Shown in pieces: positions 51,132-63,915 of a DNA stretch of 64,000 bases. Position numbers and translations under genes: made by a program. Within the stretch, counting starts at the first letter, position 1. Every line of letters begins with the position of its first letter. This DNA comes from Isotricha intestinalis (lineage: Eukaryota > Ciliophora > Litostomatea > Vestibuliferida > Isotrichidae): contig JAJJLU010000346.1 of assembly GCA_023807065.1 (NCBI GenBank), forward strand, positions 21,224 through 85,223. The letters run 5' to 3'. The notes beneath the pieces are model-generated. The model made no database searches. It was not told the origin of the DNA and saw only the letters and a program-made list of their open reading frames with translations.

Positions 51132-53300
51132 CTAATTTAAAAAATCTTTAATCAATTTAATTCTATCTTCAATATTATTATTATCATCATCTTCTTCAGG
51201 ATGAATAATTTCTTTTAACCAATTAGGTAAAAATTCTTTATTATTTTCACTTAATAATTTATCTTCAAGAATAACAATGATTTTTTTATCTAAAGAATTA
51301 TAAATTTTATTAATTATTTTTAAAGTGAATAATTTAAAAGCATCATACTTTAAAAATTCATCACTAATAACACTAACTAATTTTCTATAATATTCAACTT
51401 TAAATTCTAATATTTTATTAACATTAGTTTCAATAGGAAAACCAATAAAAACAATTCCTTTAGAAAATTCATTTAATAAACCATCAATTAAAAAGCTTTT
51501 ATTTCTTATAGATATTAATAATATTCCTCCTCTTCCTAAAGAAATACTTTTTTTATAATTTACTATTATTTTACTTAATCTAATAGGATCTTTTTCTTCA
51601 ATAAATATTAATTTATAATCTAATATAAAATTAAATACATCATGACTATTCCATTTTTCAACATATTCTTTTAATAATTTATTAGATGAAAAATATACTA
51701 TAATTCCATCTGGAATTATTTGACTTATTTTTTTTAATGTTTCACCATAAAATATTTTATTTGTAGGAGTTGTTGTTCCTATACTTGTAAAGAATAAATT
51801 ATTTTTTTTCTTTTTTTTATAATAATCATCTATTAATGATATTGATTCTAATTTAAATATATTACAAAATATTTCTAATTTTCCTATTCCTCCTGATAAA
51901 TATATTGAATTGTTATTTATTTTAGTATTTAATTTCTGAATAAAATTTGATGGTTCCATTAAATAAAGTTCTAAATATAATTTATTTGAATTTAAATTTC
52001 TATAATTTGATAAATTGATTATGTATTTATAATCTGTAAATTTTCCCATATGACATAGAAAAAAAATAAAATGAATTAAATGATACATTTCACTATAATT
52101 AAAAAATCTTATATCATTAAATTGGGAAATTAATTTTTTAAATAATTGCTTAATTGTTGAAAATTCTAACCAAAATTTCTGTAAAAAATCATATTGAAAA
52201 TAATAAATAGAAGTAATTTCTTCTTCTTTTAAATAATTTCTTTCTTTTTTTTTTTTTTCAAAAATTTCAAAGAAATAAACTAATAATTTAGATAAGACAT
52301 TAAGAAAAAGATGTGAATTTCTAATAGAACCATTAATATTATTTGTATTAGGATCATCAATTAATAAATTATAATTTAATATTTCTAATTCAGGTTTAGA
52401 TAAAATAAATTTATTATCTATTTCATTATCAATTTCCATATTATCATTCATTCTATCAAATTTTTTTATTTTTTCTCCTAAATTAAAAACTTCTATTCTT
52501 GCATTTGTTATTAAATCTTCATCAATTAAATTTGAAAAATTATTAATTAATATATTTTCTAAATTATTTACTTCATCAAAAAGAAGAAAATAATTTGATT
52601 CGTTATTTTCATAATTTATCATTTTTTGAATTGAAACTCTTCTTCTACAATCAAAAAAATCTTTAAATAAACAAATTATAATATCATATTCTCCTTTAAT
52701 TATTTTTGTTGAATTATAATAAAAAGAACATAATTTAGAATTTTTTAATAAATTAATTTGTTCTTCTAAATTAAAGTCTAAATTTAATTGAAAAGAACAA
52801 TTAAAATTATTTGAAAATAAATTATTGTAATAAATACATTTTTCATTATCTTTTTTAAAAGAAGCATTCATTTCAATACAATAATTATCAAAATCAAAAG
52901 AATTTGATTTGCTTAAGGATTCTTCATTAAAACAAGTATATTTTCTTTCGTAAAAAGGAATAATTGTTATTTTATTATTATTATTTTCTTTTTGTGAAAA
53001 ATGCTTTTTTAATATATTAAAATTATTATATATATATCTTATTTTTTCATAATCATTTACAATTATTATTATTTTTTTTTTTTGAAGTAATTTATAAAAA
53101 TATAAAGAAAATAAAACTGAACAATATAAAAAATCCTTATCTAAAGTAGGTGGAATTTCAATAAGTAAATTTTTTTGATTTATATTTAATATTTTTCTTG
53201 ATAATTCGTATACGAAATTATATTGATTTTTAGTCATTTTTTTATGAATGTAGTAAATGTTAAAGAAAATAGAATTATCTACTTTAACAGTTGTCTCCAT
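51132..53300 (-). CDS. ERCC2: XPD/Rad3-family TFIIH helicase homologue with degenerate ATPase motifs
   Basis: 722 residues. It follows XPD end to end: start (KVDNSIFFNIYYIHKKMTKN), iron-sulfur region, arch, helicase domain 2 (FYGETLKKISQIIPDGIIVY, SLGRGGILLISIRNKS, ILEFKVEYYRKLVSVISDEF, EFLPNWLKEIIH). The four iron-sulfur cysteine places are filled (C123, C141, C155, C191; human 116, 134, 155, 190). ATP motifs are not intact: Walker A GTGKT is TLDKD at 52-56, DEAH is DEVN at 242-245, the EGIDF motif is LIDGL, and the QxxGRxxR motif is KIINKIYN with both arginines lost. In TFIIH, XPD's ATPase serves nucleotide excision repair, while its bulk holds the CAK module for transcription. A structural XPD is therefore inferred. 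Confidence 0.85.
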   Translation of the reverse strand: METTVKVDNSIFFNIYYIHKKMTKNQYNFVYELSRKILNINQKNLLIEIPPTLDKDFLYCSVLFSLYFYKLLQKKKIIIIVNDYEKIRYIYNNFNILKKHFSQKENNNNKITIIPFYERKYTCFNEESLSKSNSFDFDNYCIEMNASFKKDNEKCIYYNNLFSNNFNCSFQLNLDFNLEEQINLLKNSKLCSFYYNSTKIIKGEYDIIICLFKDFFDCRRRVSIQKMINYENNESNYFLLFDEVNNLENILINNFSNLIDEDLITNARIEVFNLGEKIKKFDRMNDNMEIDNEIDNKFILSKPELEILNYNLLIDDPNTNNINGSIRNSHLFLNVLSKLLVYFFEIFEKKKKERNYLKEEEITSIYYFQYDFLQKFWLEFSTIKQLFKKLISQFNDIRFFNYSEMYHLIHFIFFLCHMGKFTDYKYIINLSNYRNLNSNKLYLELYLMEPSNFIQKLNTKINNNSIYLSGGIGKLEIFCNIFKLESISLIDDYYKKKKKNNLFFTSIGTTTPTNKIFYGETLKKISQIIPDGIIVYFSSNKLLKEYVEKWNSHDVFNFILDYKLIFIEEKDPIRLSKIIVNYKKSISLGRGGILLISIRNKSFLIDGLLNEFSKGIVFIGFPIETNVNKILEFKVEYYRKLVSVISDEFLKYDAFKLFTLKIINKIYNSLDKKIIVILEDKLLSENNKEFLPNWLKEIIHPEEDDDNNNIEDRIKLIKDFLN

Positions 53301-62734: not shown

Positions 62735-63915
62735 ATGAAAAAATCGTCATTTATTCCAAAACCTCAAAAATCTCTAAAAGAAACTCCAATTAAAATAACC
62801 GATGAAGAAAAGAAGAAGGATGAATCATCATCAGATGAAGAGGGTGAATTAAAGGATATAATCCCAGATTTAAAAAGTATTCCTAACATATATGACATTC
62901 CAAAAATATCAACATCAGAGAAAACATCTATATCAAAAAGATATAGTCCTTTAGATTGGAAAACAGCTTTTCCAGAAACATATAAAATAAACGATAACAT
63001 TCCAATATATATAAATGGTAATAAAGGACCAAATTTAGTATGTCTTCACGGAGCAGGACATTCTGGATTATCTTTTGCTCCTTTAGCTTTAATAAATAAA
63101 AATTATAGAATTATTTCTTTTGATTTTAGAGGTCATGGTTATAATACAATGAGTGAAGGAGATGATTTAAGTGAAGAAAATTTAATTAATGATACTATAT
63201 TAGTTTTAAATTATATAAATGAAAAATTCCCTCTTGATAATATTATTGTTATTGGTCATTCAATGGGAGGTTCTGTTGCTACTAAAACTTGTGAAGAAAT
63301 TTTTAAAAATCAAGATAAATATAAAGACTTGTATGATAAAATTCAAGGATTAATGGTTATTGATGTTGTTGAAGGAACTGCAATGGAAGCTCTTCCTTTT
63401 ATGGAAATTTTGTTAATAATAGACCTGAAAATTTTCCTTCTATTGAAAAAGGAATTGAATATATGTTTAGAAGTGGAACAATTAAAAATTTACAAAGTGC
63501 AAGAATTTCTGTTCCTCCTTTATTAGAAGAAATTGATAATAATGGAAAAAAATTTTATAAATTTAAAACTAATTTAATGGCTTCTAAGAAATATTGGAAT
63601 GATTGGTTTATTGGTTTAACCAAATCTTTTCTTTCTATTAAAGTTCCTAAAACTTTAATGTTAGCTGGAATTGAAAGAATGGATAAAGATTTAACTATTG
63701 CTCAAATGCAAGGTAAATATAAATTGTCTATTTTAAGAAATGTTGGTCATGTTATGCATGAAGATGCTCCTGATAAAGTTTTAGGAGTAATTGATGATTT
63801 TATTCATACTTTTAGAATCACTCCTCAATTAAGTGAAATGACTCCTATTATTGGAATGTTAGGAAATCAAAATCCTGAAACTCCGGCTATGATTAAATAT
63901 GATAAATTCCATTGA
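62735..63915 (+). CDS. PPME1: Protein phosphatase methylesterase 1, interrupted by a one-base frame break
   Basis: An alpha/beta hydrolase that removes the C-terminal methyl ester of PP2A. The first frame (62735 to about 63405) has LVCLHGAGHSGLSFAPL, SFDFRGHGYNT, the nucleophile elbow VIGHSMGGSVATK (Ser176) and IDVVEGTAMEALPFME. The second frame (about 63406-63915) continues RPENFPSIEKGIEYMFRSGT, KYWNDWFIGLTKSFLS, RMDKDLTIAQMQGKY and VGHVMHEDAPDKV with the catalytic His. The joined order is that of PPME1. Adding one A in the AAA at 63405-63407 would align both frames and give the expected NF-x-x-x-RP sequence, so the break is either a sequence error or a fresh mutation. The N-terminal 60 residues are acidic and Lys-rich. 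Confidence 0.85.

Follow-up and report, generated by a model that had tools for sequence, protein, structure and literature searches.

Can an XPD, the 5'-3' iron-sulfur (Fe-S) helicase of TFIIH, be retained once its motor has gone? The question is raised by an open reading frame (ORF) in DNA of the gut-dwelling ciliate Isotricha intestinalis (assembly GCA_023807065.1, contig JAJJLU010000346.1, positions 21,224 to 85,223, a stretch of 64,000 nucleotides referred to here as the window). The ORF lies on the minus strand, from 53300 down to 51132 with its stop codon included, and comprises 722 codons from an ATG in a single frame of the standard code, frame 1 of the plus strand across 51132-53300 being riddled with stops. 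An earlier note, made from the letters alone, saw in it an XPD homologue with the Fe-S cysteines kept and the ATPase motifs lost. In human XPD, according to the excerpted text of PMC4182028, the ATPase and helicase function is required in repair and not in transcription, and the motor is held to serve repair and the body of the protein transcription. For the ciliate protein the best explanation, and a fairly probable one, is that the XPD of a litostome was converted to a structural pseudohelicase, probably within TFIIH. It is likely that the protein is XPD by descent and, by enzyme class, no XPD helicase.

That the ORF encodes a homologue of XPD, and not of another Fe-S helicase, is supported along its whole length. 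In Pfam, DEAD_2 (E=4.8e-11) is matched above its cut-off, as is Helicase_C_2 (E=5.1e-6), the top PDB sequence match is yeast Rad3 (E=1.2e-27), and the NCBIfam rad3 model (TIGR00604) aligns residues 18-705 with model positions 7-699 of 706, at 146.7 bits and so under the curated cut-off of 246.95. The protein is co-linear with human XPD as far as the C-terminus, and the start-to-end homology put forward earlier therefore holds. A better match to another helicase family was looked for, and both profile scores (nearer XPD than FANCJ-type helicases, with references that did not include RTEL1 or DDX11) and fold ranking favour XPD, the AlphaFold model having TFIIH XPD as its best fold match (FANCJ was not among the fold-search rows listed). 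The best trees place the protein and its relatives with XPD, on a long branch. A protein database search, in which 8000 candidates were scored, returned 22 homologues of 702-758 amino acids, with query coverages of 97-100% and identities of 35-100%, one of them (P0001) more than 99% identical to it; homologues share the M1-E2 start, and seven family members compared have 17-22% identity to three canonical XPDs. Removal of three near-identical rows from the 23 left the 20 non-redundant sequences to which the counts below refer, P0002, a possible chimera, being among them.

The ATPase motifs I, III, V and VI are wholly or largely replaced and motif II is altered in its histidine only. At motif I (residues 50-59, PPTLDKDFLY opposite human PSGTGKTxxx; 53124..53153, this and all following features of the ORF being on the minus strand) the human GTGKT has become TLDKD with K55 at the Walker A lysine place, and across the family T and D stand in place of the two P-loop glycines, and D, E or N in place of the threonine that follows the lysine. 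At motif II (residues 242-245, 52566..52577) DEAH has become DEVN, its D, E and N invariant across the family; the Walker B residues D242 and E243 are kept, and so the loss of this motif is only partial. The motif III place (residues 467-475, YLSGGIGKL, 51876..51902) has LSGGIGK for the human TSGTLSP, and its S-G remains in some or most rows, with S or T at 469 and G at 470 in 19 of 20. Motif V (residues 599-607, RNKSFLIDG, 51480..51506) stands opposite human 601-609 RGKVSEGID, and motif VI (QxxGRxxR) reads KIINKIYN (residues 661-668, 51297..51320). The letters first reported, TLDKD with K55, DEVN, LIDGL, KIINKIYN and C123/C141/C155/C191, are all correct, while the register of motif VI in the human alignment, with Q662 opposite L660 and R666 opposite N664, is one residue off that given then, a shift with no bearing on the outcome. 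Loss of the ATPase motifs, as the earlier note had it, is right for most of motifs I, III, V and VI and not for the Asp-Glu of motif II. K55, D242 and E243 are invariant in all 20 sequences, and 34 positions are invariant within the family and within the three canonical XPDs yet differ between the two groups, among them (human numbering) S44, G45, T46 and G47 of motif I, H237, T460 and S462 of motif III, and G602 and I608 of motif V. Since helicase motifs I, II, III, V and VI depart from those of the enzyme, the protein is classed as an XPD-derived pseudohelicase and not as an XPD helicase.

The replaced motifs are not in a state of decay. In the 23-row alignment PPTLDK, D-E-x-N and the four cysteines are all invariant, and the altered motif residues are conserved among the non-redundant sequences down to about 37% identity. 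The segment PPTLDKDFLY is the most conserved of 713 ten-residue segments, with a mean conservation of 0.97 against 0.67 overall; neither this nor the size of the family had been noticed in the earlier note. The segments at the cysteines and at motifs II and III are unexceptional as wholes (fractions 0.16-0.42), invariance there being confined to single residues. Human XPD has the same residue at 44 of the 109 invariant family columns. Because the same altered residues are held across the family, the motifs do not look randomly eroded, and look instead as if swapped early and then maintained. A pseudogene is ruled out by the intact frame, the 22 homologues of similar length and the invariant motifs, as the unbroken frame had already argued, and drift from a general AT bias is rejected because six other Rad3-family genes in the genome retain motif I and DE[AG]H. 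An alignment-based protein search added a single archaeal protein, and scans of genome and viral contig collections gave no DNA of relatives. For 14 of the 15 more distant homologues (P0008-P0022) the longest contig has 2369-2635 bases, and for the remaining one 4248, about the size of one gene, which would fit the gene-sized chromosomes known for ophryoscolecids and Dasytricha. P0002 shares an identical C-terminal part with P0004 and in its middle matches the query, a result of recombination or chimeric assembly.

Of the parts that persist, the four Fe-S cysteine places are the plainest, as the earlier note had them, each kept in 20 of 20 sequences: C123 (human C116, 52932..52934), C141 (human C134, 52878..52880), C155 (human C155, 52836..52838) and C191 (human C190, 52728..52730). 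Beside them the residue matching human R112 is invariant in the family. The cluster may be read as a structural need of its domain, or as a sign of remaining DNA contact.

Much of the p44-binding face is the second such part. The human XPD-p44 interface consists of residues 531-533, 563-565, 589-592, 612-616 and 718-725, as given in the part of Greber et al. (PMC6422496) used here. For the 10 p44-contact residues that are invariant in canonical XPDs, 71.5% of alignment cells are kept, against 27.0% for the 116 other canonical-invariant RecA2 residues (permutation 5e-5), a count that covers the interface short of helix 718-725, for which the yeast and Chaetomium pieces stop earlier and the human piece has no 723-725. 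Individually, P and D of residues 530-532 (PDG, 51705..51713; human contacts 532-533), K563 (human K565, 51612..51614) and G589-R590 (human G591-R592, 51531..51536) are invariant, and the stretch 610-614 (NEFSK, 51459..51473; human 612-616 HHYGR) is partly kept, R616 being R or K, and H612 and G615 lost. In helix 718-722, F720 and L721 are kept in 19 of 20 sequences, and D673 is invariant. The contact of the Arch domain with MAT1 involves R324, R334 and R335, according to the excerpt of PMC7125077; of these, the first is basic (R or K) in all 20 sequences and the third (K or R) in 17 of 20. Retention of so much of the p44 face favours a structural role.

With the p44 face kept and the motor lost, much of the pattern is what would be expected if only the scaffold role were selected. 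The protein would be unable to run an ATP cycle or unwind DNA, and would still fold around an Fe-S cluster and bind p44 through its RecA2 face; for transcription initiation it would thus be a static structural part of TFIIH, keeping the core assembled and perhaps docking CAK. The altered Walker A place may then be a new conserved structural or binding element. XPD lesion checking would be absent, and nucleotide excision repair might be either lost or run without an XPD motor.

Several known systems can be set beside this one. XPD/Rad3/ERCC2 itself shares the length, the domain order, the four cysteines, R112, P532, D533, K565, G591 and R592 as well as the best fold match, and differs in that motifs I, III, V and VI are mostly replaced in the ciliate and the DEAH histidine and R722 are lost. 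The human K48R Walker A laboratory mutant is likewise a helicase-dead XPD, functional in transcription and able to scaffold it in vitro, whereas R722W, which does not bind p44, drops to 20% (both in the excerpt of PMC4182028); the ciliate change is by contrast natural, extends over several motifs, leaves the lysine untouched and is fixed in many sequences. Utp25 of the yeast SSU processome (in the available part of PMC9539457) is also a pseudohelicase within a large complex, of a different family and process. TFIIH of ciliates is known for its divergence. In Paramecium XPD, XPB, p44 and p52 are described as the only clear TFIIH orthologues, identified in Tetrahymena too (PMC12716044, as excerpted), so that few recognisable subunits and a detectable p52 are features in common; the present genome differs in its degenerate XPD and in that neither XPB nor p44 was detected.

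A number of observations weigh against the scaffold within TFIIH and are taken together. The 32 catalytic motif residues are retained at 18.4%, against 26.3% across all 313 canonical-invariant residues, which is not a significant depletion (permutation 0.10); the ranges were self-chosen, motif III counted from T460 and so without S458-G459 (mostly kept), and motif VI stopping at R666 and so without R669 (lost). R722, the p44 salt-bridge residue, is not retained, which fits a simple scaffold poorly, Y674 is lost, and R334 of the MAT1 contact is basic (K) in only 4 of 20. Human XPD C134S, its Fe-S domain compromised, still has 65% of transcription (excerpt of PMC4182028), and so a transcription scaffold accounts only partly for perfect cysteine retention. 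The AlphaFold model is of moderate confidence only, and the approximately unbiased (AU) test left two of five rival tree placements unrejected (p 0.08-0.20), both nearer the FANCJ side. Pfam HBB (PF06777), which we take to be an XPD-specific model, has no match in the protein at E<=10 and none over cut-off genome-wide, the weak genome matches on C356 and C292 appearing unrelated. Among TFIIH partners, XPB was not detected in the assembly with three models, p44 not with two and p34 not with one, the p44 and p34 models having no positive control (none of 14 control genomes over cut-off for either), so that TFIIH membership stands on p52 and the contact residues only. A purely structural TFIIH subunit, as first proposed, is accordingly favoured in its structural part by the kept p44 face and is not established in its TFIIH part.

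Foremost among the alternatives, an unlikely one, is that a duplicated XPD turned pseudohelicase and that the same cell retains an intact XPD, absent from the assembled contigs or carried in the micronuclear genome. The assembly searched has 57 Mb in 2153 contigs and its completeness limits every claim of absence, so that incomplete assembly could also explain why XPB, p44 and p34 escaped detection. Four of the 11 families searched did match over cut-off (DEAD_2, Tfb2, ERCC4 and XPG_I), so many repair genes were assembled, and the family-profile search of the protein database, which favours close relatives and scored 8000 candidates, gave no canonical XPD. A second, intact XPD, which had been named as the thing to look for genome-wide, was not found, nor any other XPD-like gene, in the DEAD_2 search of the assembly and the tree of the seven genes (8 matches) that it gave. 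These are the pseudohelicase gene and the six other Rad3-family genes, which carry GTGK[ST] or GSGKT and DE[AG]H (in C289 and C1002 the pattern used for the motif listing missed the true Walker A site, which was read from the sequences) and all group away from XPD in the tree; two of the six, compared with PDB, match FANCJ best. One of them, the FANCJ-like paralogue C942 (81% identity to C1240 in the trimmed alignment), is a partial exception to motif retention: its motif III reads TSDTLCP and its motif VI GRILSN, and it is perhaps, to judge by these letters, a second helicase losing its motor.

The p52 subunit bears on the duplicate as well. It is present in the assembly, spanning the Tfb2 model length, and nine database proteins resemble it, two at 99-100% identity. 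In six of the nine the stretch 321-400 is the most conserved part, 39% invariant against 12-25% elsewhere, and this stretch is by our own mapping the clutch. In human TFIIH the p52 clutch binds XPB. Its conservation thus favours the survival of some partner at the XPB site over an outright loss of XPB, and hints that an XPB may exist which the assembly does not display. The p52 proteins P0029 and P0032 are alike over most of their length and different at the end, through recombination or chimeric assembly. Candidates from the partner searches were rejected in turn: the sole match of the XPB-domain search (C947) reads as a FANCM-type helicase, with generic helicase domains in Pfam; the sole rad25 match (C376) adjoins a DEAD-box frame on the same strand, that neighbour being the frame scanned; a weak p44 match (C150) is by eye another vWA protein; and three of the weak p44 zinc-domain matches (C715, C1029, C2003) are not p44-like by eye.

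A little less probable again is a protein that has left TFIIH for a different task (DNA damage sensing, replication and development are examples) in which the Fe-S cluster and DNA contacts are needed and a motor is not. Invariant cysteines and R112 would suit it, given how moderately a compromised Fe-S domain cuts human TFIIH transcription, as would the loss of R722 and the fact that no segment is more conserved than the changed Walker A site; a kept p44 face, in contrast, is expected only with p44 still bound, and p52 is retained in the genome. That nucleotide is still bound or hydrolysed through an unusual site is very improbable, the invariant Walker A lysine and Walker B pair being set against the replaced P-loop glycines, the D, E or N after the lysine and the near absence of motifs III, V and VI. 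Descent from another Fe-S helicase, of FANCJ, RTEL1 or DDX11 type, is the least probable, the long branch and the two surviving tree placements being outweighed by profile scores, fold ranking, co-linearity with XPD to the C-terminus and the p44 face.

If the structural pseudohelicase is right, it suggests that XPD can endure purely as a scaffold. A lineage without the motor and with much of the p44 face and the cysteines conserved would be a natural test of the split between repair and transcription, revealing which surfaces TFIIH needs and raising the question of what purpose an Fe-S cluster has where a helicase cannot unwind. Among the matches listed from the open-licence PMC literature none described a natural XPD pseudohelicase. 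A further step, a trichostome TFIIH without any DNA motor, XPD being a dead scaffold and XPB lost, is unlikely; it would mean that promoters of RNA polymerase II are opened with no ATP-driven translocation and that lesion checking by TFIIH has been given up.

Loss or rebuilding of nucleotide excision repair, which the earlier note had drawn from the missing motifs, does not follow from the repair genes: loss is not shown, and an XPF-like protein is present. The search for XPB, XPF and XPG as repair partners yielded only a candidate for the second of these, an ERCC4-domain protein on C201 (906-codon frame) that looks like XPF from its letters GDY and ERK, its rad1-type C-terminus scoring under the cut-off of that model. 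XPG was not identified among eight XPG_I matches, the five scanned against models all scoring best with FEN1. By eye there are, besides FEN1 and two EXO1-like proteins, three divergent XPG/EXO1-like proteins on C2012, C201 and C315, that on C201 with a long asparagine-rich tail, and an XPG_I match on C794 is broken by an in-frame TGA (pseudogene, intron or error). At C1030:40000-44612 a near-perfect inverted repeat of about 4.6 kb, artefact or palindrome, carries an ERCC4-domain gene (MUS81-like by eye) on both arms.

The setting of the locus is that of a ciliate chromosome. Four of 10 contig ends, in five contigs, bear AATCCCC/ATTGGGG repeats, namely the start of C146, which is the window's contig and has none at its other end, both ends of C16 and the end of C289. 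A (CCCCAAT)n telomere occurs in Balantidium ctenopharyngodoni and Muniziella cunhai, the Muniziella paper calling it typical of Litostomatea and giving the standard code (PMC10978948 and PMC11316547, both as excerpted). Window ORFs of at least 250 codons end in TAA 18 times, TAG three times and TGA twice, and window GC is 14-23%. Telomere repeats and the standard code point to a litostome (trichostome) ciliate, and C16, with a telomere at either end of its 49.9 kb, makes large chromosomes of the kind known from Isotricha and Muniziella probable. Elsewhere in the window, at 62735-63915, an alpha/beta-hydrolase gene (PPME1-like by eye) is split across two frames, perhaps by an intron.
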